Of a DNA stretch of 33,864 nucleotides, positions 7,303 through 33,072 are shown piece after piece; within the stretch, counting starts at the first letter, position 1; each line of letters starts with the position of its first letter. The notes beneath the pieces were generated by a model that saw only the letters and a program-made list of their open reading frames with translations, searched no databases and was not told where the DNA came from. The stretch covers positions 1-33,864 of the forward strand of contig JABDDK010000015.1 in NCBI GenBank assembly GCA_013287665.1, in the 5' to 3' direction. The DNA is from Alphaproteobacteria bacterium. GTDB lineage: Bacteria; Pseudomonadota; Alphaproteobacteria; UBA9655. The position numbers and the translations under genes are program-made.

Positions 7303-8715
7303 TTATGCTTTAGTTCTCTCATACCAGAACAAGCATCTATCACTATCCGGAACTATTTGTTTTTTTACGATTTTCGCACGAGATTTTATCTGTTTCTCAA
7401 ATTCTTCGACATGATAATCCGGAAAAATATCTTCTCTGACAGCCAGCATTTTCTGAACCGTAGGATCTGATTTTGGCACAAACTCAATGATTCCTTGAGG
7501 TGCAATATTAATTAGCCATTCCACAACTTGTTTTAGGGGAATATTTTGCGCAATCGCTAGATGGTGTTCAAATGCAAGGGCAATCAAGGCATCTACCTTT
7601 GTTCTGGAGTCGAATCCTTGCCTTTCGGTTTGCATCCACCCTTGATCAGGACTTGGATTGGATGCATCGAAGTATAAGGATAGAAAGGGCAAATTTAACT
7701 TTTGAGCCCGTGAAAATCCTAAATCCACAGCTTGTTGATCAAAGTCAAACCCAACGACATATTCTGCACCCGATGAGAGAGCACTCACACTGTAGTTTCC
7801 CGTATTACAGCCAAGGTCCACTAGGATTTTTGGCTTAACTTTAGCGACAAAATCACTAACAAACTGGTGCTTCTCATCTACTCCTTGAGAGGAATACGTA
7901 TTCACGTCAGCATAGTCTCCCCAGATGGTTTTACCTTTGTCTGCTGGAGTTAACTTAGATATCCAGTTTCTGAGCTGAGTTAAAAGTCCCCGGTAGGCCG
8001 TCTTAGATAGCTCCCTACAGGATTTTGCTCTCTGGACAGCAGAATCAGGTGAATGAATCGCCTTCTTATCAAGTTTTGCTTTCAACATGACTTGCGTTAG
8101 CATGTTCAAAGAGAACCTTTTTGTTTTTGGGATGAGTTTTGCGAGGTCGATAGTTGTAATCCCCTGCATCGAACCCCGGAACCAGGCATTGTGGCTTATA
8201 CCTACAACGGAACGGAGTAGAAGGGGATTTAGAAACTGCTCACAAAATTGTCGATATCCACCCCAAAACTCTCCTTTTTTATAAGGCCTGATCGAAAGTA
8301 AATCTATGAAGATAGGTTTTGAGCCAACGAACTGAACGTTATAGGCTGTTGCATCTGAAAGTACTGCATCGTTTTCCAGCAAAAACAACTGAAAATCGAG
8401 ATGATGAAGTGCTGCAGCCTTGAGCTGGTGGAAACTCCATTCATAGGGATAAGATATGTAAGGAATGCGGGGATGCTCTAAAACATACGCAATTGTCGAA
8501 TCTTTAAAAGGCCATTGATCTTTCTCAAGCTCTTTAAACTCGCATAAATACCCAGCCTCTACGGCCTTTGATAAGACTCCATTATCCCGTAATTTGCTAT
8601 AATCAGATCGAGCAATTTCACTGACTGTCCGTAAAATTTGATTTCCAAAAACATATACCTTTCCCGCAGGATCTCGAAAAGATCCGGGGACTTGTGCAAG
8701 ACTTTTTGAGGCCAT
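7303..8715 (-). CDS. NoeA-like protein with C-terminal SAM-dependent methyltransferase domain
   Basis: A 470-residue soluble protein. The C-terminal half is a class I methyltransferase: SAM-binding motif VDLGCNTGNYS at 299-309, followed by VVGFDFDQQAVD. The N-terminal half matches what I recall of the rhizobial nodulation protein NoeA family, with motifs DATAYNVQF and FWGGYRQFCEQFLNPLLL. Within it D121-x4-N126 followed by D138 (PIFIDLLS) has the spacing of the catalytic loop and metal-binding Asp of small-molecule kinases, so a kinase-like fold is possible. It follows the small LDPG peptide gene by 13 bp and precedes the sulfatase by 48 bp. The ribosome binding site is weak (GAGAT about 10 nt upstream). 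Likely role: modification of a sugar or lipid-linked glycan; substrate unknown. Confidence 0.75.
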   Translation of the reverse strand: MASKSLAQVPGSFRDPAGKVYVFGNQILRTVSEIARSDYSKLRDNGVLSKAVEAGYLCEFKELEKDQWPFKDSTIAYVLEHPRIPYISYPYEWSFHQLKAAALHHLDFQLFLLENDAVLSDATAYNVQFVGSKPIFIDLLSIRPYKKGEFWGGYRQFCEQFLNPLLLRSVVGISHNAWFRGSMQGITTIDLAKLIPKTKRFSLNMLTQVMLKAKLDKKAIHSPDSAVQRAKSCRELSKTAYRGLLTQLRNWISKLTPADKGKTIWGDYADVNTYSSQGVDEKHQFVSDFVAKVKPKILVDLGCNTGNYSVSALSSGAEYVVGFDFDQQAVDLGFSRAQKLNLPFLSLYFDASNPSPDQGWMQTERQGFDSRTKVDALIALAFEHHLAIAQNIPLKQVVEWLINIAPQGIIEFVPKSDPTVQKMLAVREDIFPDYHVEEFEKQIKSRAKIVKKQIVPDSDRCLFWYERTKA

Positions 8716-13427: not shown

Positions 13428-13740
13428 GCCTACAACACCATTTTCTTATGAATGACCCCATGTTATTAGTCTATTTTAGAAATTTTGCAAAACCTTAACC
13501 ATCACCTTACGGATAGCAGGTTGAAAAGTACGAGAAAAAACTCATCTTTTTTGCTAGCGATTTGCAACAAAAGATTTCAAATGAAAAATATAATCCTTTC
13601 AATAAAAAAGGATCAAATCACTTTTTAATACAATCATCAAGAAAAAAACGTTACACAAACTTTAAATGACTTTTAACTTGCTAGGAACAATGAAAGATGC
13701 TAATTGCCTACAAACAAGACGATTTGATGGAGAAATTTTA
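13428..13740. other. Divergent intergenic region between the flippase-like gene and the polysaccharide operon
   Basis: No gene is seen. The region is strongly AT-rich and should carry promoters in both directions. The only distinct element is the TATAAT/inverted-repeat cluster at 13589-13613, listed separately. An in-frame upstream ATG at 13666 would extend the reductase by 25 residues but lacks a ribosome binding site and adds sequence foreign to the family. Confidence 0.6.
13589..13613 (+). promoter_or_regulatory. TATAAT overlapping a 7-bp inverted repeat; possible promoter/operator of the polysaccharide operon
   Basis: A perfect TATAAT (13589-13594) is followed directly by ATCCTTT (13593-13599) and AAAGGAT (13607-13613), a perfect inverted repeat with a 7-base spacer. 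If the TATAAT is a -10, transcription would begin within the repeat, a natural position for a repressor site, and leave a leader of about 140 nt. No good -35 lies 16-18 bp upstream (TTGCAA is 21 bp away), so this is tentative. Confidence 0.3.
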
Positions 13741-14616
13741 ATGAAAGTTCTTGTATTTGGTATTTCTGGAATGTTGGGCAACTCCATTTTCCGATATTTC
13801 AATGAACGCGATGAGCATGTGATCTTTGGTACAGCTCGTTCATCATCCTGTTTCAAATATTTCGATCAGAAGACTCATAAAAACATCATAACAAACGTTA
13901 ATGTTGATCAGCCGGACTCTCTTTTAAAAGTCATGAATGATGTAAAACCGGACGTTGTGATCAACTGTATTGGCGTCGTTAAACAGCTCAAACAGGCTTA
14001 CGATCCATTGGAGAGTATTCCCCTAAACTCTCTTCTCCCTCACCGTCTTGCTGAGATTTGCAAGGCTTTTAATGCACGTTTAATTCATATCAGCACGGAC
14101 TGTGTTTTTTCAGGAACCCAAGGATTTTATAAAGAAACAGATTTACCTGATGCAACAGACCTCTATGGTCGCTCGAAATTATTGGGCGAAGTTACCTATT
14201 CGCATACCATAACACTGCGCACATCTATTATTGGGCATGAGTTGACGGGCTCCAGAAGTTTGGTTGACTGGTTTCTTTCACAGAAAGAGAAGACCAAGGG
14301 CTTTACAAAGGCAGTGTTTTCTGGATTCCCTACGGTCGAATTAGCACGCATCATTCATGATACTGTCTTACCACAACCAAAGTTAAGTGGTCTTTATCAT
14401 GTAGCAGCAAATCCGATCAATAAATTTGATCTTTTAACTCTCATTAAGAATACTTATAAAAAGGATATAGAGATTGAACCAACTGACGAACTTATTATTG
14501 ATCGTTCTTTAAACGCAGAACGGTTTAATAAAGAGGCTGGGTACATACCCCCAAGTTGGTCTGATCTCATTAAGTTAATGCACGATTCAAAACGACCAAA
14601 GGGTGATCATGTTTAA
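13741..14616 (+). CDS. RmlD/WbvR-like NAD(P)-dependent sugar-nucleotide reductase
   Basis: A 291-residue extended short-chain dehydrogenase. The N-terminal Rossmann motif is VFGISGMLG (about residues 5-13). ISTDCVFSG holds the catalytic Thr region, YGRSK the YxxxK dyad, and RTSIIG the RmlD-like substrate segment. GGAG about nine bases before the ATG at 13741 sets the start. The next two genes encode a 4,6-dehydratase of the CapE/WbjB type and a WecB-like 2-epimerase. In the UDP-L-FucNAc pathway the reductase (CapF/WbjC/FnlB) is about 370 residues with a C-terminal cupin domain; this protein has none and instead looks like WbvR of the UDP-L-QuiNAc pathway. It is therefore inferred to reduce the C-4 keto group of UDP-2-acetamido-2,6-dideoxy-L-lyxo-4-hexulose. 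It overlaps the next gene by eight bases. Confidence 0.8.
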   Translation: MKVLVFGISGMLGNSIFRYFNERDEHVIFGTARSSSCFKYFDQKTHKNIITNVNVDQPDSLLKVMNDVKPDVVINCIGVVKQLKQAYDPLESIPLNSLLPHRLAEICKAFNARLIHISTDCVFSGTQGFYKETDLPDATDLYGRSKLLGEVTYSHTITLRTSIIGHELTGSRSLVDWFLSQKEKTKGFTKAVFSGFPTVELARIIHDTVLPQPKLSGLYHVAANPINKFDLLTLIKNTYKKDIEIEPTDELIIDRSLNAERFNKEAGYIPPSWSDLIKLMHDSKRPKGDHV

Positions 14617-15619
14617 GGATAAAACCATCTTAATTACGGGTGGAACAGGCTCATTTGGAAATGCTGCTCTGAAAAGGTTTTTATCAACTGATGTTGGTGA
14701 AGTTCGCGTCTTTAGCCGAGACGAGAAGAAGCAAGAAGACATGAGAATTAAACTCAACAACAATAAAGTTAAATATTACATTGGCGATGTTCGCGATTAT
14801 GACAGCGTTTTTCAAGTGACACGTGGAGTTGACTATATCTTTCACGCTGCGGCTCTCAAGCAAGTCCCTTCCTGTGAGTTTTATCCCATGGAAGCCGTTC
14901 GCACAAATGTGCTGGGTGCTGAAAATGTATTAAATGCGTCTATTTCTAATAATGTTAAGAAGGTCATCGTTCTCAGTACGGATAAAGCTGTATATCCAAT
15001 TAATGCAATGGGTATCTCAAAGGCTATGATGGAAAAGTTGATGATTGCCAAATCACGTATGCAAAGTGAAGATCAAACTGTTCTTTGCGCCACACGGTAT
15101 GGCAATGTTATGGCGTCACGTGGATCAGTCATTCCTCTATTCGTGAGCCAAATCAAGGAAAACAAACCATTAACAATCACAGAACCTACGATGACTCGAT
15201 TTTTGATGTCACTTGAAGATTCGGTCGACCTTATTTTATATGCATTTCAAAAGACCCGGCAGGGAGACATTTTTGTTCAAAAAGCTCCCGCATCAACCAT
15301 TGATGTTCTTGCTAATGCCTTGATTGAATTGTTTGGGTCTAAGAGCACAATTCGTTATATTGGGGCTCGTCATGGAGAAAAACTTTACGAATCTCTTCTC
15401 TCTCGGGAAGAGATGGGAAAAGCGGAGGATCTTAAAGAATATTACCGTATTCCGGCCGACAATCGTGATTTAAATCCTGCTAATTATTTTGTCGAAGGAA
15501 CGCCTGGATTGATTACAAATGAGGATTATACATCCCACAATACGACTATTCTTGATGTGGAGGGAGTGAAGAAACTCTTATTAAAGCTCGATTTCATCCA
15601 GGAGCAGCTTCATGCTTAA
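14609..15619 (+). CDS. capE: UDP-GlcNAc 4,6-dehydratase/5-epimerase, CapE/WbjB/FnlA type
   Basis: A 336-residue short-chain dehydrogenase/reductase that should convert UDP-GlcNAc to a 4-keto-6-deoxy-L-hexosamine intermediate. The cofactor motif GGTGSFG lies at 11-17. The active-site block STDKAVYPINAMGISK carries the DK pair and the MxxxK in place of YxxxK that is typical of the CapE/WbjB branch. FHAAALKQVPSCE is the substrate-side motif, and ATRYGNVMASRGSVIPLF a strong family signature. The start at 14609 (ATG, AAGGG five bases upstream) is preferred to GTG at 14603; it overlaps the reductase stop by eight bases. The 3' end overlaps the 2-epimerase gene by eight bases, so the three enzymes are translated as a block. 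Length is normal for the family. Confidence 0.9.
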   Translation: MFKDKTILITGGTGSFGNAALKRFLSTDVGEVRVFSRDEKKQEDMRIKLNNNKVKYYIGDVRDYDSVFQVTRGVDYIFHAAALKQVPSCEFYPMEAVRTNVLGAENVLNASISNNVKKVIVLSTDKAVYPINAMGISKAMMEKLMIAKSRMQSEDQTVLCATRYGNVMASRGSVIPLFVSQIKENKPLTITEPTMTRFLMSLEDSVDLILYAFQKTRQGDIFVQKAPASTIDVLANALIELFGSKSTIRYIGARHGEKLYESLLSREEMGKAEDLKEYYRIPADNRDLNPANYFVEGTPGLITNEDYTSHNTTILDVEGVKKLLLKLDFIQEQLHA

Positions 15620-16745
15620 AATAATGACAGTTGTTGGAACGCGTCCAGAAATTTTAAAAATGGCACGTGTCATCAATGAATTTGACAAATATACAAATCA
15701 TATATTGGTTCATACAGGGCAAAATTATGATTATGAGCTCAATCAAATATTCTTTGACGAATTGGGCATTCGTAAACCGGATTATTTTTTGGATGCAGCC
15801 GGGTCATCTGCTGCAAAAACAATCGCACAGGTCATAGACAAATCGGATACAGTTTTTGAAAAAGAACGTCCAGATGCTGTTCTTATCTATGGAGACACAA
15901 ATTCAGCCCTGTCAGCCATATCAGCAAAGCGGTTGAAAATTCCCGTTTTTCATATGGAAGCTGGTAATCGGTGCTTTGATCAAAGAGTTCCCGAAGAACT
16001 CAATCGGAAAATAGTAGACCACATTAGTGATATTAATATGGTTCTGACCGAACATGCGCGAAGGTACTTGATCGCGGAAGGCCTTCCCCCTGAGAGAATT
16101 ATAAAAACGGGTTCTCACATGGAAGAGGTTTTAGATTACTATATGCCTCAAATTAAGGAATCAAAAGTCCTTGAAGAGCTTAATCTTGAACCAAAAGGTT
16201 ATTTCATTGTCAGTGCACACCGTGAAGAGAATGTAGACGACGTCAAGAATCTTCAGAACTTCTTGGATAGTTTAGAAGCTCTAGTCAATGAATTTAATTT
16301 ACCAGTTCTTGTGTCAACCCATCCTCGGACAAAAGATCGTCTCGATAAACTCGGGCTTGATGGCAAATTCAATGACAAGATTCGCTTTTTAAAACCCTTT
16401 GGCTTTCTTGCCTATATCAAACTTCAAATGGAAGCCTTTTGTACATTATCCGATAGTGGAACCATCACAGAAGAATCATCCCTCTTAAATTTCCCAGCCA
16501 TTACAATCCGGAATGCTCATGAAAGGCCAGAGGGAATGGATGAAGGCACGCTTATTATGAGTGGGCTTTTACCAGAACGCGTTGTGAACGCAGTTAAGGC
16601 AGTCACCGATCAACATCAACGGATGGGGAATGTAAGAAAAATTGTTCCGGATTATCAAGCAGGCATGGTATCTGTAAAAGTCTTACGAATAGTGAAAAGT
16701 TACATCGATTATATTAATCGTGTTGTATGGCAAAAAGGGCTTTAA
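15612..16745 (+). CDS. wecB: UDP-N-acetylhexosamine 2-epimerase, WecB family (WbvD/WbjD/FnlC branch)
   Basis: A 377-residue non-hydrolysing 2-epimerase. Motifs: VVGTRPEILKMA (N-terminal UDP region), HTGQNYDYELNQIFF, EAGNRCFDQRVPEELNRK (catalytic and nucleotide loop) and LSDSGTITEESSLL followed by RNAHERPEGMDEG near the C-terminus. The RNAHERPEGMDEG block recalls the WbjD/FnlC/CapG branch more than the WecB that makes ManNAc. In context it would carry out the last step, C-2 epimerisation of UDP-6-deoxy-L-hexosamine, giving UDP-L-QuiNAc if the reductase is WbvR-like, or UDP-L-FucNAc if it is not. AGGAG eight bases upstream fixes the start inside the end of the dehydratase gene. The symbol names the protein family, not the enterobacterial common antigen function. 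Confidence 0.88.
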   Translation: MLKIMTVVGTRPEILKMARVINEFDKYTNHILVHTGQNYDYELNQIFFDELGIRKPDYFLDAAGSSAAKTIAQVIDKSDTVFEKERPDAVLIYGDTNSALSAISAKRLKIPVFHMEAGNRCFDQRVPEELNRKIVDHISDINMVLTEHARRYLIAEGLPPERIIKTGSHMEEVLDYYMPQIKESKVLEELNLEPKGYFIVSAHREENVDDVKNLQNFLDSLEALVNEFNLPVLVSTHPRTKDRLDKLGLDGKFNDKIRFLKPFGFLAYIKLQMEAFCTLSDSGTITEESSLLNFPAITIRNAHERPEGMDEGTLIMSGLLPERVVNAVKAVTDQHQRMGNVRKIVPDYQAGMVSVKVLRIVKSYIDYINRVVWQKGL

Positions 16746-16746
16746 A

Positions 16747-17565
16747 GTGAACCAGTTAAAATCTATGAAAAATGTGATAAGGTTATTTTATAACCATCGA
16801 ACACTCATATCTGAAATGATCAGAAGAGAAGTGTTTGGTCGTTATAGAGAGCAATTTGGGGGTCTTGCTTGGTCTTTTCTGAATCCCCTCATCATGCTTG
16901 GCATTTATACCTTTTTCTTTTCTATTGTCTTTAAAGCCCGTTGGGCGGGAACGATTAGAGAGTCGCACCTTGACTTTGCCCTCATCTTATTTGCTGGCTT
17001 AATTACATATGGATTCCTTGCGGAATGTTTGAGTCGAGCCCCTCACCTCATTATTTCGAATGTGAACTTTGTCAAAAAGATAGTCTTTCCCCTTGAGGTT
17101 CTGCCAGGAATTGCCATGGGTTCAGCCTTATTTCATGCCTGCATCAGCTTTTCGACCTTGATATTAGCACAAATCGTGATGTCAGGAAGCTTGCCTTGGA
17201 CAATCATTTTTCTACCCGTCATTATGCTCCCTTTAATGATAATGACTTTAGGTTTTACATGGTTCATATCTGCAACCGGTGTGTACATTCGTGATATTAG
17301 CCAGATTGTAGGATTTTTATTGCCCATCCTTATGTTTGTGTCACCCATATTTTGTCCCGTTTCAGCCTTTCCAGAGCGATTTCAACCCTTTCTTTTTTTG
17401 AACCCCCTAACCTTTCCTGTAGAAGAAATAAGAAATATAGTGATATTTGGAAATTTGCCACACTGGAAGGGCTTAGCCATATATTATTTGATCAGTCTCG
17501 TTATCGCACATCTAGGACTTTCCTGGTTTCAAAAGACAAGAAGTGGATTTGCAGATGTCCTCTAA
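16747..17565 (+). CDS. wzm: Polysaccharide ABC exporter permease Wzm
   Basis: A 272-residue ABC-2-type integral membrane protein with about six transmembrane helices. The N-terminal amphipathic segment LISEMIRREVFGRYREQFGG is the usual entry motif of Wzm/KpsM permeases, and the NPLTFPVEEIRN block near the end is also characteristic. GTG at 16747 is chosen because AAAGGGC lies eight bases upstream and it starts just after the epimerase stop; ATG at 16765 has no ribosome binding site. It overlaps the ATPase gene by 11 bases, so transporter subunits are co-translated. It should move a lipid-linked polysaccharide across the inner membrane in one piece. Confidence 0.9.
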   Translation: MNQLKSMKNVIRLFYNHRTLISEMIRREVFGRYREQFGGLAWSFLNPLIMLGIYTFFFSIVFKARWAGTIRESHLDFALILFAGLITYGFLAECLSRAPHLIISNVNFVKKIVFPLEVLPGIAMGSALFHACISFSTLILAQIVMSGSLPWTIIFLPVIMLPLMIMTLGFTWFISATGVYIRDISQIVGFLLPILMFVSPIFCPVSAFPERFQPFLFLNPLTFPVEEIRNIVIFGNLPHWKGLAIYYLISLVIAHLGLSWFQKTRSGFADVL

Positions 17566-18901
17566 TAACATAGTCCTCTCTGCACACAATGTCGGCAAGT
17601 GTTTTTATATGTATGATCGCCCTGCGGATCGCCTTAAAGACCTTATAGCCCCTAAACTTAGTTTTATTCCCAGTCTTAATAAGAGAAAATTCCACACAGA
17701 ATTCTGGGCATTGAAAGATGTCTCTTTTGAAGTTGGCAAGGGTGAATGTGTTGGAATTATTGGGCAGAACGGAAGTGGCAAGAGCACACTCCTTCAGATC
17801 ATTGCAGGGACAATGACTCCTACTACCGGTCATGTTGATGTGCAAGGCAAGGTTACAGCTCTTCTCGAGCTCGGATCTGGTTTTAACCCTGACTTTACAG
17901 GGAGAGAAAACGTCTACCTCAATGGTTGCCTGCTTGGACTTACCCGAACAGAGATCGACGAGAAGTTTGATTGGATTGCGAGCTTTGCAGACATTGGCCC
18001 TCACCTTGAGCAAGCCGTAAAAACATACTCAAGCGGTATGATGCTTCGTCTTGCCTTTGCAGTCCAAGCCGCGATCGATTCACAACTTTTAATTGTCGAT
18101 GAGGCTTTAGCTGTTGGAGATGCTCGCTTCCAACTCAAATGTTTCAAGCGCCTGGAAGAATTAAAAAATAGCGGGACGACAATTTTATTTGTATCACATG
18201 CTACTGAGCTCGTAAGATCCTTATGTAGTCGAGGCCTTCTCCTTAATGGAGGAGATGTTATTTATTGGGGAGATGCAAAAGTAGCGACAACAAAGTATTT
18301 TGACATTCTATTCCCTGAAGAAAAGGGAACTGAGACAATTCATGAAGTAGAAACAAACACTCAAACGTTTTCTAACGACTCAAACGATCCTTCTGCCTAT
18401 TGCCTAACCTTAGGCCTATCTGATCTTCAGGGTGAGCGATTCGGTATCGGGGGAGCAGACTTAATTTCAGTAAACATTCTCGGATTAGATAAGCCGAACA
18501 TCCTTGTTGGTCAACGTCAACTTAATGTGAAATGTCAGTTTTCATGGGATATTGAGTTTGTTAAAGATCTTATAAAAAAAGAAAATTATGAGAAGAACAT
18601 TACTCTTGGTATATCACTCTGTGATAACATGGGGCGATACTTATTTGGCTGTAATGGCTTCGATAATTATGTCCATATAGATGTTGAAAATAAAGGCAAG
18701 AGTACTGTTGAATTCAAAGTAAAAATCCCCTATCTTACGCCTGGAACTTATTTTTGCACTATAGCAATCGCCGTAGGAAATCAAAAACACCACGCTCAGC
18801 TTAAGTGGTACGATTGTGCAATTCAACTTCAAGTTCAAGAGAGTTCGAATAATGTCTATGGCGTTTTTGCAATCGATTATGAAATGAAAAAGGTGGCTTA
18901 A
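17555..18901 (+). CDS. wzt: Polysaccharide ABC exporter ATPase Wzt with C-terminal carbohydrate-binding domain
   Basis: A 448-residue ATPase of the O-antigen/capsule exporter class. Walker A is GQNGSGKST (70-78), signature YSSGMMLRLAFA (about 158-169), Walker B LLIVDEALAVGD (178-189) and switch His FVSHA. After a linker, residues about 265-445 form a beta-rich extension (TLGLSDLQGERFGIGGADLI ... LTPGTYFCTIAIAVG) matching the Wzt C-terminal domain. In Escherichia coli O9a and similar systems this domain recognises the modified non-reducing end of the finished chain before export. Start: ATG at 17555; a GTG four codons earlier is possible. The next gene encodes a double methyltransferase only one base after the stop, which fits a terminator-exporter pair. 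Confidence 0.9.
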   Translation: MSSNNIVLSAHNVGKCFYMYDRPADRLKDLIAPKLSFIPSLNKRKFHTEFWALKDVSFEVGKGECVGIIGQNGSGKSTLLQIIAGTMTPTTGHVDVQGKVTALLELGSGFNPDFTGRENVYLNGCLLGLTRTEIDEKFDWIASFADIGPHLEQAVKTYSSGMMLRLAFAVQAAIDSQLLIVDEALAVGDARFQLKCFKRLEELKNSGTTILFVSHATELVRSLCSRGLLLNGGDVIYWGDAKVATTKYFDILFPEEKGTETIHEVETNTQTFSNDSNDPSAYCLTLGLSDLQGERFGIGGADLISVNILGLDKPNILVGQRQLNVKCQFSWDIEFVKDLIKKENYEKNITLGISLCDNMGRYLFGCNGFDNYVHIDVENKGKSTVEFKVKIPYLTPGTYFCTIAIAVGNQKHHAQLKWYDCAIQLQVQESSNNVYGVFAIDYEMKKVA

Positions 18902-18902
18902 A

Positions 18903-20411
18903 ATGAACGAACTACAAAAGTTAATTTTTAATGAGGGTGAAAGATTAATTCCCTATGTATCACACAATGAAGATGAATTGATACGCCATCGAAGTTCATA
19001 TGTTTTTTTTCATCAAGTTATTCTTGCTGACCTGAACCAGAAGAAAAAAAATAAATCTCCACTCAGAATTGTAGATTTAGGTTTTGGTACTGGTTATGGA
19101 TGCACAATCTTAAGCAACTTACCCAATAGTAGTGTCGTCGGAGTTGACATCTCTGAAGAATGTGAGAAATTTGCCCGCATATATTATCCTCGATCTAACG
19201 TTAATTATATTATTGAGGATTTAGCAACATATATCCCAAAAATGGAAACTTTTGATTATGCTGTTTCCAGAGGTGTTCTAGAGCATGTCCCCGATGGTTT
19301 GAATGTTATAAAAGACATTAAATTCCGTAACCGCGTCATGATTGATGTCCCTTATGATGAAATTCCAGGCAATGAACACCATGTTATTACCGGAATTAAA
19401 GAGGATGCTTTTAACCACCTAGAAAACTGCGAATTATTTTATGAATCTCTCGATGGTACCATTTATGACGAATCTACTCGTCCCGAAAGCGCTAATATGA
19501 TAATGGCCGTCATTAGTGACCCCCAACTTCCTAAGGTCAGCAGTTTATTCCAATTTCCTATCCCACCCGTTATAACGGATGATCTAGAAAATAACGAGCA
19601 TGGCACCTCAGACAATAATAAATTCTATTTTAATCAAGCAGAACAATTATTAAAAAGAGTTGAAGAAGTTGTAGAGACAACTGATGTCGTTGCAGATATC
19701 GGTTGTGGGATTGCACCCATGGTTTACTTCCAACCAAAACTACATTTAATGATTGACCCGTGGCAAGAGTACACAGATATTTTGTCTCATCGTCATGCGG
19801 ATGACAAATCAATTATTGTTCTGCGTGCTACAGCTCTTGAGGCCCTCCGTTCATTTGGAGATAAGTCAGTCGACACTATTTTTCTTCTCGATGTCATTGA
19901 ACACATGGAAAAGGACGAAGGTTTTGACGTTATTAAAGAAGCGGAACGTGTTGCACGTCAACAAATTATAGTATTTACCCCACTTGGTTTTATGTCTCAG
20001 GAAATGGAACTCGATGAAAAGGACGGATGGGGTCTTTCTGGAACAGTCGTCCAAACTCATAAATCTGGATGGACACCAGAGGACTTTTCTTCTGATTGGT
20101 TGTTTTATATTTGTAAAACGTTCCACAAAGTAGATCACAAAGGAGTCACATTAGAGGTACCCCATGGCGCGTTTTTTGCTATAAAAAACATAAGAGACAA
20201 AAGCGTTGCTGCCCCTAAAATCATGTCAGATATTCGCCGTTACACCCAACTGGAGTTGCATTACCAAAAATGGCAGGAAGATTATCAAAGAATGCAGGAA
20301 GATTATCAGGCAATAACCATTCAATATCAAAAACTGATGTCTGAGAATAGTCTACTTAAATCCTTGTTAATCATTAGAGTCTTGCGTAAATTAAAGCTAA
20401 TTAAAATATAA
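18903..20411 (+). CDS. Tandem SAM-methyltransferase with C-terminal coiled coil; candidate chain terminator
   Basis: A 502-residue protein with two class I methyltransferase domains. The first has motif I VDLGFGTGYG (57-66) and SRGVLEHVPDG; the second has VADIGCGIAP (263-272) and LLDVIEHME. Residues about 443-490 form a probable coiled coil built from repeated YQ-containing segments (YQKWQEDYQRMQEDYQAI), ending in a basic-hydrophobic tail (LLIIRVLRKLKLIKI) that could touch the membrane. In WbdD-type terminators a methyltransferase (with kinase) caps the O-chain and a coiled coil measures its length. Here no kinase domain is visible, so capping would be by methylation alone. It starts one base after wzt with AGGTGG upstream. 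Alternatively it methylates internal sugars. Confidence 0.75.
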   Translation: MNELQKLIFNEGERLIPYVSHNEDELIRHRSSYVFFHQVILADLNQKKKNKSPLRIVDLGFGTGYGCTILSNLPNSSVVGVDISEECEKFARIYYPRSNVNYIIEDLATYIPKMETFDYAVSRGVLEHVPDGLNVIKDIKFRNRVMIDVPYDEIPGNEHHVITGIKEDAFNHLENCELFYESLDGTIYDESTRPESANMIMAVISDPQLPKVSSLFQFPIPPVITDDLENNEHGTSDNNKFYFNQAEQLLKRVEEVVETTDVVADIGCGIAPMVYFQPKLHLMIDPWQEYTDILSHRHADDKSIIVLRATALEALRSFGDKSVDTIFLLDVIEHMEKDEGFDVIKEAERVARQQIIVFTPLGFMSQEMELDEKDGWGLSGTVVQTHKSGWTPEDFSSDWLFYICKTFHKVDHKGVTLEVPHGAFFAIKNIRDKSVAAPKIMSDIRRYTQLELHYQKWQEDYQRMQEDYQAITIQYQKLMSENSLLKSLLIIRVLRKLKLIKI

Positions 20412-20420
20412 TGATATTTT
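20403..20420 (+). terminator. AT-only hairpin at the end of the double-methyltransferase gene
   Basis: AAAATAT-aatg-ATATTTT is a perfect 7-bp inverted repeat straddling the stop codon (20409-20411), followed some 11 bases later by a run of six T. The stem has no G-C pair, so it is unlikely to be a strong terminator; the 75-bp gap that follows is the longest in this part of the operon up to the parS gap. Confidence 0.2.
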
Positions 20421-20486
20421 ATCAACTTATATTTTTTCATGATATGAGAAGTTTTTAACTAATTATTTGTGAGTTAGGATGTGGCA

Positions 20487-21746
20487 ATGAACATTTTACA
20501 AATCAATGGCTACGAAACTCCCGGAGCTCGTTTTCATGGTCTGGCCATTACTCCTTTATTAAAAAAGCATGGAGTTGAGTCACAGCATTTTGCTTGGAGG
20601 AAAGATACGAATAACCCTGATATTTTAAGCTTTAAAAGTATACACGAGAAAATATCTCATAAGATTTATCAGAAAACAGAAGATCTTCTCTCTCTTCAAT
20701 CCGTGATCTATCCGTATGCACGCAAAATAATGGCTTTGCCCGCCTTTAAACAAGCAGATCTTATTCATCTTCACATCATCCATTCTGGTTTCTTCAGTCT
20801 ACGGCATTTACCCGAACTTACAAAACAAAAGCCCACCGTTTGGACGCTGCACGATCCTTGGGCCTTAACAGGACATTGCATACATCCCTTTGAGTGTGAT
20901 CGTTGGAAAATAGGGTGTGGCAGTTGTCCTGATCTTAAAACTCCCTTTTCGATGAGACGTGATAATACGAAATTTCAATTTTCCTATAAAAAAGAATCTT
21001 ACGAAAATTCTGATCTGGATATTGTTGTTGCATCAAAGTGGATGAAAGACATGGTTGAGGCTTCCCCTATGTTGAGGAATGCTCATGTTCACGTCATCCC
21101 TTTCGGTTTAGATCTTACTTATTTTAGTCCATTAGATTCAAAAAAAGCACGGATGCGTTTCGGTATCCCAGAGGAGGCAATTGTCCTTAGTTTTAGAGCT
21201 GAAGATGAACCATTCAAGGGCTTATCCTATATTATAGAAGCTCTTGAAAAATTAAAAGGAAATGACCCGATCTACCTCCTGACATTAAGTAGTGCCCGTC
21301 TTAAAAAAAGAGTATCAAACCGCTTTCAGATTGTTGAATTAGGGTGGGTCTATGATCAAGAAATTGTACGTGATGTTTACAGGGCCTGCGATATTTTTTT
21401 AATGCCATCTCTTGCTGAATCTTTCGGAATGATGGCTGTTGAGGCAATGGCATGTGAAAAACCTGTTATTGTATTTGAAGGTACCGCATTACCGGATGTT
21501 ACCTTTGCTCCCGAAGTCGGAATTGCAGTGCCAAATCGGGACTCTCATGCCCTTTCTGAAGCTATACAGAGATTGATTGATCATCCAGAAGAACGGATAG
21601 AAAGAGGTAAGAAATGTCGTGAAATTGCTGAAAAGGTATACAGTGAAAAGGCACACGTCCAAGCTATGGTGAATCTCTATAAAGATGTCTTGAACAAAAG
21701 CAAGAATAAGAATAGAAGCAAAAATATTAAGGTTTTTGGTAAATGA
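20487..21746 (+). CDS. GT4-family glycosyltransferase
   Basis: A 419-residue GT-B retaining glycosyltransferase. The N-terminal half contains WTLHDPWALTGHCIHPFECD and a GCGSCPD motif, found in a subset of GT4 enzymes of exopolysaccharide and O-antigen clusters (the TGHC plus Cys cluster). The C-terminal half has the nucleotide-sugar motif FLMPSLAESFGMMAVEAMAC with the E-x7-E pair. ATG at 20487 is chosen over GTG at 20481 because AGGAT then sits eight bases upstream. It is overlapped at its end by the next gene (ATGA). Adds one sugar to the operon's glycan; donor and linkage unknown. Confidence 0.85.
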   Translation: MNILQINGYETPGARFHGLAITPLLKKHGVESQHFAWRKDTNNPDILSFKSIHEKISHKIYQKTEDLLSLQSVIYPYARKIMALPAFKQADLIHLHIIHSGFFSLRHLPELTKQKPTVWTLHDPWALTGHCIHPFECDRWKIGCGSCPDLKTPFSMRRDNTKFQFSYKKESYENSDLDIVVASKWMKDMVEASPMLRNAHVHVIPFGLDLTYFSPLDSKKARMRFGIPEEAIVLSFRAEDEPFKGLSYIIEALEKLKGNDPIYLLTLSSARLKKRVSNRFQIVELGWVYDQEIVRDVYRACDIFLMPSLAESFGMMAVEAMACEKPVIVFEGTALPDVTFAPEVGIAVPNRDSHALSEAIQRLIDHPEERIERGKKCREIAEKVYSEKAHVQAMVNLYKDVLNKSKNKNRSKNIKVFGK

Positions 21747-22963
21747 CATCTGAAAAGATTTTGATTCTCAGTTATGCTTTTCCCCCTTTAAAAGTACAGA
21801 TGACTCCTATTGTTACCAAGCACTTAGAAGTGTTTACTAAACTGGGCTATGAAGTCGATGTCGTAAGTTGTGATGCGTCGACCTTTTGGTTTGGTATAGA
21901 TAATAGTTTAAGTTCTTTTGCTTCCAAAAAAGTCTCAAATTTATACCTTGTTGAGTCAACATTTAATTTAAGTAACTTACTGCTTAATAAATTAATTTTT
22001 TCAAACACTTTTGCACTCAAAATGAGGCAGCTACATTCTGCTTCTTTGAAATATCTAAAAAAAATGGACTTATCAAAATACAATGCGGTTATTACTTTTT
22101 CACCCTTTAATACTGTGAATAGAGTCATGATTGATCTCAAAAAACAACAACCAGACATTCCATGGATTGCACAGTTTAGTGATCCATGGGCGAGGAATCC
22201 TCTAGAAAAGAAGAAAATCGTTAACCTGTGGAATGCTTATTTTGAGCCAAAGGCAGTTAAAGCTGCAGATGCAATCATTCACTGCACGCCCTATTCTTTG
22301 GATCTGATGTTACAAGGAAACCTTAGAAAGTATAAAAATAAAGGATATGTGATCCCTCACTTTTTTGTGGAAGAACTCTATCCAAAGAGACCAAAAGTCA
22401 AGAATGACCTCATTACTTTAAGGTTTTTAGGGACTCTCTTTGATAATCGTAACCCAGGGTCTTTTTTTAAGGCTCTCGATCTCATGTTGAGCCGGCGCCC
22501 CGATTTAAAGGAAAAAATATCCATCGAACTCATCGGCAGTGTTCCAGAAAATATGCTAAATATCAATGAGTTAACGTCTATTCCTCCAGGGCTCATTAAA
22601 ACAATGGGAAGCGTGAGTTACATTGAATCTTTAGAGCTCATGTATGATGCGGATATCCTCCTCCTTATTGAAGCCGACGTTCATCAGAACGTTTTTTTTC
22701 CAAGTAAACTTATAGATTATTTAGGGGCTAACACACGAATTTTAGGATTGGTCTCATCCGGGGTCTCTAAAGATATTTGTGAAATGCTGAAAACATGGCA
22801 TGCCTCTCCTTCAGACGTTGTTGGTATCTCTCACAACCTTGAAGCCGCCATTGATGATGTAAAGCGACATCCCCTTTTTCGAGGATATGACGCCTCCATT
22901 AGAAACCAGTTCTCAGTCACAACAGCTGCAGCGCATTATGATGCGATTATCAAACATTTATAA
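21743..22963 (+). CDS. GT4-like glycosyltransferase
   Basis: A 406-residue protein with GT-B architecture. N-terminal motif ILILSYAFPPLKVQM, a central WIAQFSDPWARNPL segment often seen in GT4-like enzymes with an N-terminal GT4 fold, ADAIIHCTPYSLDLM, and a C-terminal domain with YIESLELMYDADILLLIEAD and FFPSKLIDYLGA. The E-x7-E motif of classical GT4 enzymes is not clear here, so the donor site may be atypical. Its start overlaps the previous stop in an ATGA arrangement. Its own stop codon forms the left edge of a 24-bp palindrome containing a parS sequence. Confidence 0.8.
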   Translation: MTSEKILILSYAFPPLKVQMTPIVTKHLEVFTKLGYEVDVVSCDASTFWFGIDNSLSSFASKKVSNLYLVESTFNLSNLLLNKLIFSNTFALKMRQLHSASLKYLKKMDLSKYNAVITFSPFNTVNRVMIDLKKQQPDIPWIAQFSDPWARNPLEKKKIVNLWNAYFEPKAVKAADAIIHCTPYSLDLMLQGNLRKYKNKGYVIPHFFVEELYPKRPKVKNDLITLRFLGTLFDNRNPGSFFKALDLMLSRRPDLKEKISIELIGSVPENMLNINELTSIPPGLIKTMGSVSYIESLELMYDADILLLIEADVHQNVFFPSKLIDYLGANTRILGLVSSGVSKDICEMLKTWHASPSDVVGISHNLEAAIDDVKRHPLFRGYDASIRNQFSVTTAAAHYDAIIKHL

Positions 22964-22985
22964 AATGTTTCACGTGAAACATTTT
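22962..22985. promoter_or_regulatory. parS: parS centromere site (ParB-binding palindrome)
   Basis: The 16-mer TGTTTCACGTGAAACA (22966-22981) is identical to the widely conserved bacterial chromosomal parS consensus bound by ParB. It is embedded in a perfect 24-bp palindrome (AAAA and TTTT flanks) that starts within the TAA stop of the preceding glycosyltransferase gene. Other CACGTG cores in the window (14820, 15117, 15664) lack the flanking arms. parS sites usually lie near the replication origin and near parAB; neither is in this window. A bidirectional terminator hairpin is the alternative reading, but exact identity with parS makes that less likely. Confidence 0.85.
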
Positions 22986-23013
22986 GAGGGTCAATCGATG
23001 GGAAAAAGACTAT

Positions 23014-23036
23014 TTTGTAAGAAAACGACTTACAAA
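23014..23036. repeat. 8-bp inverted repeat between parS and the methyltransferase gene
   Basis: TTTGTAAG (23014-23021) and CTTACAAA (23029-23036) form a perfect inverted repeat with a 7-base spacer, 54 bp before the next start codon. No T-run follows, so it is not an obvious terminator. CTTACA (23029-23034) followed after 17 bp by TATGGT (23052-23057) could be a weak promoter that would be covered by a protein bound to the repeat. Confidence 0.45.
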
Positions 23037-23090
23037 TGTAGAAGAATACTGTATGGTCTTTTTACAATACTAATATAGAAGGAAACAACA

Positions 23091-23798
23091 ATGTTCGTTA
23101 ACTTAGCAAAGAAAATTGCACGAAAATTGGGTTTAAATGCGAATAATGGAAATTATTCCAATGATTTAAAGGAAAAATTTTCAGAAGTTTATGACAAAAA
23201 TTTGTTCGAAGGAAAAAAATCCCGCTCCGGCGAAGGCTCTGACCATATTCAAACAGAGATCATTCGCCGCGAAATACCAAAGCTCATCAAGAAATATAAA
23301 ATTAAAACCTTTCTTGATGCTCCCTGTGGTGATTGGTATTGGATGAGCCAAGTTGATCTGGGAGTCGATACCTATTACGGGGCGGATATTGTTGAAACCA
23401 TGATTGAAAAAAATACAAAAGATTATGGAAATTCATCAACGATATTCAAATGCTTAAATCTGACAACCGATACTTTACCTGCAGTCGACCTCATCTTTTC
23501 AAGAGATTGTCTTGTCCATTTAAGCTATGAGGACGCCCTTAATATTCTCAAAAATTTCAAAAAATCAGGTGCTAAGTATCTTTTAACAACGACCTTTACA
23601 AATAGGGACAAAAATACTGACATGATTGATGAGAACGGCAATTCCCTTTTCTGGCGAACATTGAACATGCAACTCAGTCCCTTCAACTTTCCTGAACCGA
23701 TTCTTCTTATCAATGAAGGATGCACTGAAGATAATAATAATTACGCGGACAAATGTTTGGGATTATGGAATTTGAGTGATCTGACGCTCACCGAATAA
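23091..23798 (+). CDS. SAM-dependent methyltransferase-like protein
   Basis: A 235-residue protein. Motif I is FLDAPCGDWYWM (about residues 74-85), with ADIVETMIEKN as the acidic second strand and LIFSRDCLVHLSYEDAL as the motif-IV region, a variant seen in small methyltransferases of glycan loci. The N-terminal 60 residues carry a basic segment and an SxGEGSDH motif probably involved in substrate or cofactor binding. AAGGA eight bases upstream supports the start. It is separated from the upstream genes by the 127-bp parS gap and followed nine bases later by a glycosyltransferase. It probably O-methylates a sugar; this is inferred from context. Confidence 0.8.
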   Translation: MFVNLAKKIARKLGLNANNGNYSNDLKEKFSEVYDKNLFEGKKSRSGEGSDHIQTEIIRREIPKLIKKYKIKTFLDAPCGDWYWMSQVDLGVDTYYGADIVETMIEKNTKDYGNSSTIFKCLNLTTDTLPAVDLIFSRDCLVHLSYEDALNILKNFKKSGAKYLLTTTFTNRDKNTDMIDENGNSLFWRTLNMQLSPFNFPEPILLINEGCTEDNNNYADKCLGLWNLSDLTLTE

Positions 23799-23807
23799 AG
23801 TGATGTA

Positions 23808-24839
23808 ATGCAAAAAACCAAACGTAAAGGTAAGTTTATATTATACGGACCCAATGTTCATAATGGTGGGGGACTTGTTCTATTACAAGACTTATTAAAA
23901 GTTAATCGTATTTCGATACAGAATGCATTTCTTTCTTTAAGAGCGAAAGATCAACTCATCCTTCCGAAGGGAACTCAAATCAACTATATTAAGGGATTAT
24001 TTTCTCGCATCAAAGGGGAATGGAGTTTAAAGAAACTCTGTACAGCCAAAGACATCACGCTCTGTTTTCATGGTGTGCCTCCCTTGTTTTCTATCCCAGG
24101 GAAAGTCGTTGTATTCGCCCAAAATCGTCTGATATTCGAGAAGGGATCCCTGTGTCAATACGACTTCAAAACAAGGTTGCGATTACATCTCGAGCGTTTC
24201 TGGATCAAACTAACCCATAAATCCTCAATTCAATACATTGTGCAAACACCATCGATGGCATCGAGTTTAAAACAGCAACTTGGGGCTGATTGCCATTTAA
24301 GGATAGTCCCCTTTATGGAGACGAAAGCTGAAAAAATACCATCAAAATCAACCCGTTATGACTTCATTTATATCGCGAGTGGTGAGCCTCATAAAAACCA
24401 TCATACCCTCATCAAGGCTTGGGAAATTCTCGGCAAACAAGGATTAAAACCCTCACTTGCCATTACAATTGACCCTCATGTATTTCCTAATCTTATAAAA
24501 ATACTGGAGAAAGCAAAACTTTCTTTTCATCTTAACATGACCAATTTAGGCGTAGTCCCTCATGAAGAAGTGAAGTCTTTATATGCGTCTTCAGGCGCTC
24601 TTATCTTTCCATCCTCCCTGGAATCATTGGGACTTCCTTTGATCGAGGCTTCTCAATATGGGCTTCCCATCATTGCTTCAGAAAAGGACTTTGTCCGTGA
24701 CTCCGTAAATCCAACTGAGACCTTTGATCCAAGCTCGCCCGTATCAATTGCACGTGCTGTTCGCAGGTTCATGAAGAAGCCCGAACCTTCACAGAAGATA
24801 CAGTCAGCTTTTGACTTTCTCAAGGAAGTAAACAAATGA
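23808..24839 (+). CDS. GT4-family glycosyltransferase
   Basis: A 343-residue GT-B enzyme. It begins with GPNVHNGGGLVLL, where the glycine-rich loop is the acceptor-side motif, has YIASGEPHKNHHTLIKAW at the start of the donor domain (about residue 185 on), and carries ALIFPSSLESLGLPLIEASQYGLPII with the E-x7-E catalytic pair near 265-273. It is somewhat shorter than average for the family. The ribosome binding site is weak (AAGTGATG). It overlaps the next gene by four bases (ATGA). Donor unknown. Confidence 0.85.
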   Translation: MQKTKRKGKFILYGPNVHNGGGLVLLQDLLKVNRISIQNAFLSLRAKDQLILPKGTQINYIKGLFSRIKGEWSLKKLCTAKDITLCFHGVPPLFSIPGKVVVFAQNRLIFEKGSLCQYDFKTRLRLHLERFWIKLTHKSSIQYIVQTPSMASSLKQQLGADCHLRIVPFMETKAEKIPSKSTRYDFIYIASGEPHKNHHTLIKAWEILGKQGLKPSLAITIDPHVFPNLIKILEKAKLSFHLNMTNLGVVPHEEVKSLYASSGALIFPSSLESLGLPLIEASQYGLPIIASEKDFVRDSVNPTETFDPSSPVSIARAVRRFMKKPEPSQKIQSAFDFLKEVNK

Positions 24840-26065
24840 GAATACTTATTTGGTCACAGTACTTCTGGCCCGAAAACTTTCGAATTAACGAAATTGTACA
24901 GCAACTAAGCCTACAAGGAAATGCTCTAACGGTTTTAACAAGTAAACCGAACTATCCTGAAGGTGCGATTTATCCGGGATATAAAGCCTGGGGAATTGAT
25001 CGTGAGTCCTATTCTGATGCTGAAGTCATTAGGATTCCTATTATCCCCAGAAGAAAGGGCTCAAAACTTGACCTGATTCTGAATTACCTATCCTTCATTC
25101 TATCCGGATACATTTTTGCACCTTTTGCCTTAAAAAACAGAAAATATAGTGTTGTTTTTGTTTATGCTCCTTCTCCCCTCCTCCAAGCTTTACCGGCCAT
25201 CTTTATAGCATGGCTGAAGGGTGCAAAGCTTGTTATTTGGGTTCAAGATTTATGGCCAGATGCTCTTGAAGCGACAGGTTTTGTCAAGAACAAGTGGGTG
25301 TTAAAAGCTGCAGGAGTGGTCGTAAAATTCATCTATAAACATGCTGATTCCATTCTTATACCATCTGAGGCCTTTCGACCGTCCATTGAGCCTTTTGTTT
25401 CTGACAAAAATTCTATTATTTATCTTCCCAATCCAGCCGATGATTTAACAGTAATGAAGGAAACGACTCCAAAAGCCACCAAGATTGCACAAGATATATC
25501 AAAGTACTTTTCACTCATTTATGCGGGAAATATAGGCCATGCACAATCTGTTGAAACAATCATACAAGCTGCAAATTTATTGATTTCGTATCCTGAAATT
25601 AAATTTTATCTTGTAGGAAGTGGAAATAGGGCTAAAACCATCTCTACAATGATAGAAGATCAAAAGCTCGAAAATGTCGTTATGGTGGGTCAGTTTCCCT
25701 ATTCGGATATGGGAGCCATATTTGCAGTTTCTTCAGGTTTAATTTTATCCTTGAAGAATTATGACTCCCTTTCAAAAACAATACCCAGCAAGCTTCAGAG
25801 TTATCTTTCTGCAGGTAAACCCATCATTGGATCCTTAAATGGTGAAGGAAAAAGGTTAATTTCTGAGATTAGAACTGGCTTTTCAAGCCCTGCCGAGGAT
25901 CCGAAATCACTTGCTGATCAAGTCCTCAAACTCTATACACTTAAACCTCAGGAACGCGAAAAAATGGGAAAGAACGGAAGAGAGCATTATGAATGCTTCT
26001 ATTCCGTTCCCATTATCACGAAATGCTTAGAAAAATATCTAAAGTTTAAAGACCCAACTCTTTAA
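24836..26065 (+). CDS. GT4-family glycosyltransferase, WbuB/WbjE-like
   Basis: A 409-residue GT-B enzyme. The N-terminus [20 protein letters not shown] with TSKPNYPEG and the [14 protein letters not shown] segment are typical of WbuB-type transferases, which in other organisms accompany fnlABC/wbj genes and are assigned as L-FucNAc (or related 6-deoxyhexosamine) transferases. [18 protein letters not shown] opens the donor domain, followed by [43 protein letters not shown] about eight bases before the ATG supports the start. Its presence fits the 6-deoxy-L-hexosamine genes at the operon start. Its last 20 bases overlap the end of rpmE on the other strand. Confidence 0.85.
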
Positions 26066-29418: not shown

Positions 29419-32400
29419 ATGAAGATTTCGCGCCATTTTACTAAAGCAAACCAAGATCCCTATAGCACTTTTGAATTCCGCAAAACAGACAGCGAAATTC
29501 GGAATCCCGATGGCTCGATCATTTTTCGTTTAGAAGGAATTGAAGTTCCTCAAGCCTGGTCTCAAGTTGCCTGTGACGTTCTTGCACAGAAATACTACCG
29601 TAAAGCAGGTGTTCCAAAAGCTCTCAAAGCGGTCAAGGAGCCAGGTATTCCTGAGTGGTTATGGCGCAAAGAAGCCGATACGGAAGCCCTCTCAAAATTG
29701 CCTGAAAAGGAACGTTATGGCAGCGAAATGACGGCCAAGCAGGTCTTTGACCGGATGGCAGGATGCTGGACGTATTGGGGTTTTAAAGGTGGATATTTTG
29801 AAACTGAAGCTGACGCCCGCGCCTATTATGATGAAATGCGCTATATGTTATGCGCTCAAATGTGCGCCCCAAACTCTCCGCAATGGTTTAATACAGGTCT
29901 TTATTGGGCTTACGGCATTAATGGTCCTGCACAAGGACACCACTTTGTCGATTACAAAACGGGTGAACTCCAAGCCTCAACATCCTCTTACGAACATCCT
30001 CAACCCCACGCTTGCTTTATCCAAAGCATTAATGATGACCTTGTGAATGAAGGGGGCATCATGGACCTCTGGGTTCGCGAAGCGCGCCTCTTTAAATATG
30101 GCTCTGGGACGGGATCAAACTTTTCTAACCTGCGCGGTTCAGGGGAAACTCTGTCGGGCGGAGGGCGTTCCTCTGGTTTGATGAGCTTTTTACGCATAGG
30201 TGACCGTGCAGCCGGCGCCATTAAATCGGGCGGAACAACACGAAGAGCCGCCAAAATGGTTGTTGTCGATGTGGACCATCCCGACATTGAAGAATACGTC
30301 AATTGGAAAGTCGTCGAAGAACAAAAAGTTCTCGATCTCGTTGTGGGCTCAAAAGTCGCAAAAAAACATCTTTCTGCTATCTTTGCAGCTTGCCAGACAG
30401 GCAAAGGGGACGAGCGGTTTAATCCAAAAGAAAACCCAAGCCTCACACAAGCCATTCGCGCAGCGCGTGAAGCAACGATTCCAGAGAATTATTGCCAACG
30501 TATTATTCAATTCGCCCGTCAGGGTTACACACATATGTCGTTCCCAGAATATGATACGGATTGGGATTCAGAAGCCTATAGAACAGTTTCTGGACAGAAC
30601 TCAAATAACTCCGTTCGCGTTAATAACAAGTATCTTCACGCCGTTATGGAAGACAAAGAATGGGACCTCTTGCGCAGAACGGACGGTAGCGTTTTTAAGA
30701 CCATTCATGCCCGCGATTTATGGGATCAAATTGGCCAAGCCGCATGGGCGTCTGCTGATCCGGGACTACAATTCGATACAACGATTAATGAATGGCATAC
30801 ATGCCCTCAGAGCGGCCGTATTAAGGGGTCTAACCCGTGTTCTGAGTATATGTTCTTGGATGACACAGCTTGTAACCTAGCGTCCCTCAATTTGGTCACG
30901 TTTATGAATCATCACGGCAAAAATTCAAAAGCGGGCGAACTTCACTTTGACGTTCCCGCCTTTGAACATGGGGTTCGTTTGTGGACCATTGCGCTTGAAA
31001 TTTCAGTCATGATGGCCCAATTCCCTTCCAAAGAGATTGCGCTTTTGTCCTATGAATTCAGGACGTTAGGTCTTGGATTTGCGAACATTGGCGGACTTTT
31101 AATGGCCTCAGGTATTCCTTATGGGAGCAAGGAAGGCCGCGCTATCGCTGGAGCGATCTCTGCATTGATGACTGGTGTTTCTTATGCAACCTCTGCGGAA
31201 ATGGCCAGTGAGCTTGGAGCCTTTAAACATTTTGAGCTCAATAAAAAAGACATGCTCCGCGTTATGCGTAACCATCGTCGTGCTGCTTATGGTGAAACGA
31301 AGGGATATGAAGAGATCCAAATTAACCCGGTTCCTTTAGAAGAAAAGGATTGCCCCAGTGCAGCTCTGATTAAGTCTTGTCGCCATGCGTGGGATCAAGC
31401 CATTAAACTTGGTGAAAAGCACGGGTACCGCAACGCTCAAACCACGTGTATTGCGCCAACGGGAACCATTGGACTTGTCATGGATTGCGATACGACAGGG
31501 ATTGAACCTGACTTTGCGATGGTGAAATTTAAGAAGCTCGCGGGTGGTGGTTACTTTAAAATTATTAATCGCCTTGTCCCACAAGCGCTTGAAGTCTTGG
31601 GTTACAATGAAAAACAACTGGGTGATATCATCCTTTATGCGGTCGGTCATGGAACCCTTGAAGGATCTCCTGGCGTTAACTATAAGGCATTGAAATCAAA
31701 GGGTTTTACGACGAGAGAAATTGACATATTAAATGACAATTTAAAAGCTGCATTTGATATTAAATTTGTCTTTAATCGTTGGACTTTAGGGGATGACTTC
31801 TTAAAGAACACATTAAAGCTGACTGAGGATCAACTCAATGATATGCAGTTTGATCTCTTATCCCATCTTGGCTTTAAAAAAGACGAAATTGAAGCCGCGA
31901 ATTCTTTCTGCTGCGGAACGATGACCGTTGAAGGAGCTCCCCACCTTAAGAAAGAGCATCTTGCCGTCTTTGATTGTGCCAATCCTTGTGGTCGCATCGG
32001 AACACGGTACTTGTCTGCTGAAGATCACATCCGCATGATGGCCTCTGTTCAGCCTTTTATATCGGGGGCTATCTCTAAAACTATTAACATGCCGAACTCA
32101 GCCACCATTGAAGAATGCAAGAGTGCTTACCTGCTCTCTTGGCGACTCGGAACAAAAGCGAATGCCTTGTATCGAGATGGCTCCAAGCTTTCCCAGCCTT
32201 TAAGTTCCACCCTCTTGGACGATGATGGGATTGAGGAATTTTATGACCTTCCCACAACTGAAAAAACAAAAGTCGTTGCGGAAAAAGTTGTTGAACGCGT
32301 TGTTGAGCGCTTTATGAATCATGCCCAACGTCAAAAGCTGCCCAATCGTCGTAAAGGCTATACGCAAAAGGCCGCGGTTGGTGGACACAAGGTGTATTTA

Positions 32401-33072
32401 CGAACAGGTGAGTATGATGACGGCACCTTAGGCGAAATCTTCATTGATATGCATAAGGAAGGCGCTTCCTTCCGTAGCTTGATGCATAACTTCGCCATGG
32501 CGATTTCCATTGGTTTACAATATGGCGTCCCTCTTGATGAATACATCGATGCCTTTGTCTTCACCCGTTTTGAACCTTCTGGGCCAGTGGCTGGGAACGA
32601 CACCATTAAAATGGCGACATCGATCCTCGATTATATATTTCGCGAGCTTGCCATTTCTTACATGGGCCGCACAGATCTTGCCCATGCAGAACCGATGGAC
32701 TTGCGTCCAGACACGATCGGTCGCGTTGATGCTGAAAAAGGGACTGTTGTCTCTAAGGAAAAGACAAAAGGTGAAGTTGTTAACAGCCTTACGAGTAATG
32801 GATATATCAGAAATAAAGTCTTTATGCCCTCTAAAGTTGCCAATAGTGATCTAGACGCTTATTTGCTTCATGAAGCCACAGGAACAGACTCAGCCGCACC
32901 TGTCATGGGATCCGGTACCATCACAACGACAGAATTTGAAGATCGCCGTGCGCAGGCCCGTCTTAAAGGGTATGCCGGAGATGCGTGTGGTGAATGCGGC
33001 AACTTCACGCTTGTTCGTAATGGGACGTGCTTTAAGTGCGATACGTGCGGCGCAACGAGTGGATGTTCTTAA
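29419..33072 (+). CDS. nrdJ: Adenosylcobalamin-dependent (class II) ribonucleoside-diphosphate reductase
   Basis: A 1217-residue class II ribonucleotide reductase that makes deoxyribonucleotides using coenzyme B12, independent of oxygen. N-terminal region [20 protein letters not shown]; first catalytic Cys in QPHACFIQS; radical-site block NPCSE with Asn472, Cys474 and Glu476; [20 protein letters not shown] loop; and a C-terminal zinc-ribbon-like tail (CGECGNF ... CFKCDTCG, last ~28 residues) that holds the redox cysteines used for re-reduction. Length agrees with the long alphaproteobacterial NrdJ type. AAGGA about nine bases before the ATG supports the start. The gene has its own promoter with NrdR-like boxes and overlaps the convergent crotonase gene by four bases. 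Dependence on cobalamin implies uptake or synthesis elsewhere in the genome. Confidence 0.97.

Follow-up and report, generated by a model that had tools for sequence, protein, structure and literature searches.

The question raised by this locus is whether a perfect palindrome lying within a run of surface-glycan genes is a genuine chromosomal parS site and, if so, why it should be found there. The window analysed here, a stretch of 33,864 nucleotides from an alphaproteobacterium, makes up all of contig C15 of the host draft genome (G000), and its features are collected in Table 1. A preliminary description had reported an exact parS consensus inside a perfect 24-bp palindrome that begins in a stop codon, and both points are borne out by the letters: the first two flanking A's of the palindrome double as the second and third bases of the TAA closing the upstream gene. 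The exact 16-mer occurs only once in a scan of the window. One other site, at 29162, carries 3 mismatches, where a mean of 0.27 sites with three or fewer mismatches is expected by chance.

Table 1. Features at and around the parS palindrome of the window
Feature	Position	Strand	Basis or remark
parS core, TGTTTCACGTGAAACA	22966..22981	.	letters read directly; exact consensus
24-bp palindrome AAAA-parS-TTTT, AAAATGTTTCACGTGAAACATTTT	22962..22985	.	motif common to 25 copies
TAA stop codon of upstream gene	22961..22963	+	shares two bases with palindrome
Upstream gene (406 aa), resembling a glycosyltransferase on visual inspection only	21743..22963	+	no Pfam match at 1e-5
Downstream gene (235 aa), resembling a methyltransferase on visual inspection only	23091..23798	+	no Pfam match at 1e-5
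Surface-glycan gene run, co-directional, contains window site	13666..26065	+	Pfam matches in 8 of the 10 proteins tested

Copy number and distribution in the host genome

The window copy belongs to a large set. Twenty-five exact parS 16-mers were found on 15 contigs of G000 where base composition predicts about 0.0005 in 1.58 Mb, and the 16-mer pattern read backwards gave 0 copies in the same assembly. Near-misses are limited to one site with one mismatch and two sites with two. The assembly is a draft of 1,580,843 bases in 74 contigs and is 83.7% complete, so that the copy counts are lower bounds and a second ParB may lie in the missing part. With an exact consensus, this excess of copies and one parS-type ParB encoded in the genome, identification of the window palindrome as parS is well supported at the level of sequence. 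We therefore regard it as very probably a genuine chromosomal parS and one of 25 such sites in an unusually expanded ParB-binding zone. The preliminary description had offered two alternatives, a locus close to oriC or one distal parS embedded here, and this pair of choices misses that the window copy is one of 25.

The copies were also observed to be clustered. On contigs C1-C29, to which the test was restricted, 19 sites fall on 9 of the 29 contigs (p = 0.001 for spread and 0.006 for contigs hit; p = 0.002 when the pair in rsmG is counted once), six further sites being located on smaller contigs whose lengths are not all known. A random distribution of the 16-mer, which had been named as an outcome that would speak against the earlier proposal, is thus disfavoured on these contigs. 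If the parS zone forms one block, it covers at least 354,574 bases (355 kb), equivalent to 22% of the assembly and 19% of the completeness-scaled size. An association of the sites with assembly breaks was rejected, as seven of 25 are found less than 2 kb from a contig end, roughly the number expected from the count and lengths of the contigs. At two of the copies, C4:59428 and C6:34193, parS is followed immediately by the same flank, TTGATGGGAT; the flank at C28:12292 is TTGATGACAT. Furthermore, a nearly identical stretch that reads as an ORF occurs on both C24 (near 7554-7904) and C39 (near 12747), where it is located at parS or some 200 bp or less from it, and it looks like a dispersed repeat.

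ParB and comparison with known systems

A single ParB match over the family cut-off (E 3.9e-56) was found in G000, on contig C4, so the absence of ParB that would have spoken against a parS function does not apply. The gene order at this locus is rsmG-parA-parB and two parS sites lie inside rsmG. The earlier remark that parAB is not near the window site holds as far as contig C15 reaches. The nearest named records to ParA are from alphaproteobacterial MAGs with 74-75% identity. In an alignment with 6t1f, a ParB chain of solved structure that we take to be the Caulobacter protein, the ParB of G000 was observed to carry R173, T179, T184 and G201. According to excerpts of PMC7383237, R173 and G201 are conserved in parS-binding ParBs while residue 184 is variable; Noc-type proteins have Q173, K179, K184 and R201, and noc is described there as having arisen in Firmicutes only. 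The system in G000 resembles Noc and its binding sites (NBS) in having a ParB-family protein and many dispersed 16-bp palindromes, but the sequence is that of parS and the ParB carries R173 and G201 in place of Noc's Q173 and R201. The window site was accordingly not classed as an NBS, its sequence being parS and the only ParB found having R, T, T and G at the four positions.

A close likeness is seen to the chromosomal ParABS systems of Caulobacter crescentus and Bacillus subtilis, with which G000 shares the 16-bp palindrome, a single parS-type ParB, the rsmG-parA-parB order and sites adjoining the locus. It differs from these two, in which parS lies near oriC, in the number and spread of its exact copies. 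Caulobacter has at least five clustered parS sites (excerpts of PMC5815017) and B. subtilis has eight over about 0.75 Mb (excerpts of PMC8357415). A single ParABS also serves twenty or more parS sites in Streptomyces coelicolor and Listeria innocua, with 20-23 near the origin (PMC7333895, in part), and in Myxococcus xanthus, with 22 in a 9.1-Mb genome (PMC3899335, in part). G000 differs from these high-copy zones as its 25 sites occur in an incomplete 1.58 Mb and the other members of its genus have 1-9. In excerpts of PMC8357415, widely scattered parS sites are described as rare, as counterproductive for SMC and as confined to a small number of lineages; Bacilli are one of these, and there sporulation may account for them. 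A comparable case was not found in a search of the open-licence literature; G000 combines known parts with a small genome in which the set of sites is very large and looks recent.

By analogy with known ParABS systems, we infer that the ParB encoded at the single rsmG-parA-parB locus would load as a clamp at each 16-bp site and slide into the flanking few kb. The loaded segments would then be bridged into one partition complex that is moved by ParA, and SMC, if present, would also be loaded at them. Selection would keep the copies. However, 25 sites over at least 355 kb greatly exceed the requirement for parS, and some of them may be weak or unused, since one parS site often suffices (PMC7333895, in part) and, in Caulobacter, a new parS is tolerated within a zone of about 500 kb around the native cluster and carries a fitness cost outside it (PMC5815017, in part). 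This tolerance zone offers a possible explanation for the clustered growth of sites in G000.

Placement and origin of the copies

The conserved signal at the sites extends slightly beyond the 16-mer. Among the 50 half-sites of G000, the information content at positions +1 to +4 was 1.43, 1.69, 1.04 and 0.55 bits and fell to 0.17 bits or less at +5 to +14, whereas the outer positions were weaker in five relatives (0.40, 0.82, 0.47 and 0.44 bits in 58 half-sites). The signal stops at 24 bp, and a test for a longer repeat at the sites was negative. No likeness of the flanks was found beyond the 24-bp motif, the best pair agreeing at 18/34 positions where random sets gave 16-19.

Although coding sequence makes up 88% of the DNA, 16 of the 25 sites are intergenic (p = 8e-10). 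The other nine are counted as inside ORFs of at least 100 aa, one of which (on C24) is unlikely to be a gene. Twelve of the 16 intergenic sites, including the window site, start no more than 20 bp from a stop codon, a distance shared by 7.8% of intergenic positions. This comparison is generous, as its null takes in all intergenic positions and long gaps weigh most in it. Several copies are located between co-directional genes that are separated by a short gap, as at rho, rodA, ftsX and kdsB. Sites within dapD, tilS, glyS and ligA are associated with no length change against the relatives compared, which were one relative of another genus only for dapD, glyS and ligA and two for tilS. For two other genes the comparison is less clear, since ccmA could be aligned only to a paralogue-like protein and bcp differs at its C-terminus. 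By contrast, the first parS of rsmG (a gene located at L100 6855-7469) forms an in-frame 7-aa insertion relative to six relatives. In four of the six relatives aligned, the residues VSRET occur near the RsmG N-terminus in place of this insertion.

These observations bear on whether the copies might be a small mobile or copy-spread palindrome of the REP type that equals parS by chance, in which case the window copy would be one insertion and ParB binding a side effect. REP-like elements favour gene 3' ends, as the sites of G000 do, and the rsmG insertion and the partly tandem copies, with a 37-bp period, of another genome with 78 sites (G246) fit such an origin. Flanks that are unlike beyond 24 bp and four sites within genes that arose with no length change in the relatives compared do not, and a decaying repeat family would hardly show one single-mismatch site against 25 exact copies, except after a very recent spread. 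We consider this origin improbable. Under the preferred reading of the copies as genuine parS sites, the substitutions in four of the genes open to comparison, the one in-frame insertion in rsmG and the lack of common flanks beyond 24 bp suggest that the copies arose mostly one by one.

The surface-glycan neighbourhood

The run of genes that contains the window site encodes RmlD-like, Polysacc_synt_2 and Epimerase_2 proteins, an ABC-2/Wzt-type transporter, a methyltransferase and group 1 glycosyltransferases according to Pfam searches of ten proteins, in which the last gene (24836-26065) was left out. The G+C content of the run is 37-41% in 2-kb steps compared with 44% over parS-bearing stretches. 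A search of 16 relatives for the gene upstream of the site gave no homologue at a threshold of E<=0.001. The preliminary description had suggested comparing the same intergenic gap in relatives; this left-hand gene offers no anchor for such a comparison in the 16, and its absence places the window copy in lineage-specific DNA. Together with the low G+C content of the run, this points to a parS copy that arose in, or came with, such DNA. Elsewhere in the window, the protein encoded at 227-1231 on the reverse strand consists largely of repeated PAPAEPEH/EQAPAA units.

It had also been suggested that ParB spreading could affect the flanking glycan genes, and a real parS that additionally silences them is conceivable by analogy with Pseudomonas aeruginosa, where ParB represses genes adjoining parS3 and parS4 (excerpts of PMC5521831). 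In Caulobacter, however, the spread of ParB from a single site covers no more than about 2 kb (excerpts of PMC5815017), and the sites of G000 follow gene ends and not promoters, which suggests an avoidance of regulation. Such silencing appears unlikely here.

Position relative to oriC

The other alternative of the preliminary description, a locus close to oriC, was approached through dnaA and gene order. No dnaA was found in the 74-contig assembly of G000, where two weak DnaA-like matches on C2 lie below the cut-off. The gene order of G015, a 20-contig relative from another genus, is scrambled with respect to G000, and GC skew over 39 stretches of this relative is noisy. Neighbours of nrdJ, which is the window gene at 29419-33072, map to parS-bearing G000 contigs in G002, G004, G005, G006, G013 and G014, and also to G000 contigs that have no parS in G002, G004, G005, G008, G013 and G014. 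The nrdJ homologue of G007 (C9 9796-11850) was matched in three pieces within one 711-aa frame that covers the query partly.

Variation among relatives

The number of exact copies varies widely within the genus, where the 14 other members have 9, 9, 4, 4, 3, 1 and eight times 2, and two relatives from the same family have 3 and 0. Within one genus, the number of exact sites thus ranges from 1-9 to 25 with one ParB, such that gains can be dated, placement rules measured and changes in the protein correlated with copy number. This makes G000 a natural case for how bacterial centromeres grow; why the number of parS sites varies, why they cluster and how a centromere region expands are questions posed in excerpts of PMC7333895 and PMC5815017.

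Judged by gene neighbours, only three of the 25 sites of G000 are matched in G001, G004, G007, G008 and G012, which have 29 exact sites between them. The matched sites are the one directly after rho, the second of the two in rsmG and, in G001 only, the one within tilS; turnover of parS sites is fast by this sequence comparison. The rho and rsmG genes are on separate contigs in G000 and adjoin in the relatives examined, with parS kept at both. Of 54 genes located near parS in G001, 46 map to G000 contigs that carry parS, whereas parS-bearing stretches form 42% of the DNA compared and just 2 of 14 genes from five G001 stretches with no parS do so. For the other four relatives together the figure was 54 of 83, with the lowest proportion in G008 (8 of 20). 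This mapping indicates that a parS-rich chromosome region exists and is shared in part.

In a tree of ParA and ParB with 15 rows (G002 entering without ParA and G011 being absent), G000 forms the first branch in the genus with a support of 81, and G001 and G004 are placed elsewhere. A parallel expansion of parS copies is only suggested by these sequences, as the inner nodes are weak (35-51). ParB residue 177 in Caulobacter numbering is Thr in G000, G246 and G218 and Ala in all 13 genus-mates with a readable ParB. Thr177 was observed in three of five copy-rich genomes against three of 71 panel ParBs (Fisher p 0.003), but this test was post hoc, the sequences are related and not independent, and 9 of the 80 panel loci have no readable motif. 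The association of Thr177 with copy number is a lead only.

In a wider sample of the class, 282 of 385 alphaproteobacterial genomes have at least one exact copy and five have ten or more: G246 with 78, G000 with 25, G227 and G385 with 18 each and G218 with 13. Only G246 exceeds G000. A bolder reading is that ParB in G000 has shifted from an origin-anchored to a distributed centromere of at least 25 selected 24-bp sites over at least a fifth of the chromosome. Its sites would stand mostly just behind gene ends, sparing coding sequence and promoters, and would be regained in newly acquired DNA such as the glycan run. ParB would then pull and compact a large domain in a Noc-like role at the scale of the nucleoid, helped by a changed DNA-reading helix (Thr177 for Ala). 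We put this shift forward tentatively and think it more doubtful than probable; the same shift may have taken place independently in G246, G227, G385 and G218. The 78 exact 16-mers of G246 occur in a 1.8-Mb draft with one ParB over the cut-off. Tandem arrays with a 37-bp period are found on many of its contigs among the matches listed (e.g. L294 5889-6089, L295 and L302).

In G227, a single contig of 2,753,527 bases (L284-L293), eight copies lie within 5 kb beside parB and ten are distributed all round the chromosome. Eight of these ten dispersed copies have GTTC seven bases before the second GTTTC, and this GTTC-N7-GTTTC pattern resembles what we take to be the alphaproteobacterial LexA box, overlapping parS. 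The pattern lends some weight to the reading of the palindromes as operators of another regulator, and perfect palindromes at gene 3' ends whose RNA folds into a 10-11 bp stem could likewise be taken for terminators. At the window site, however, the GTTC-N7 flank is absent from the sequence, the predicted RNA fold has a z of -1.52 with 18 of 200 shuffles folding equally well, and none of the 14 terminator-like calls (a G+C-rich stem followed by a T run) between 13600 and 26300 falls on the site. Moreover, divergent gaps hold just one of the 16 intergenic copies of G000 when 23.7% is expected (p = 0.08), and the copies in short gaps between co-directional genes also argue against such a role. 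An operator or terminator is therefore a very remote explanation for the G000 sites, which we continue to regard as parS. In G227, the recurrence of GTTC-N7-GTTTC suggests that another factor may be involved at the dispersed copies.
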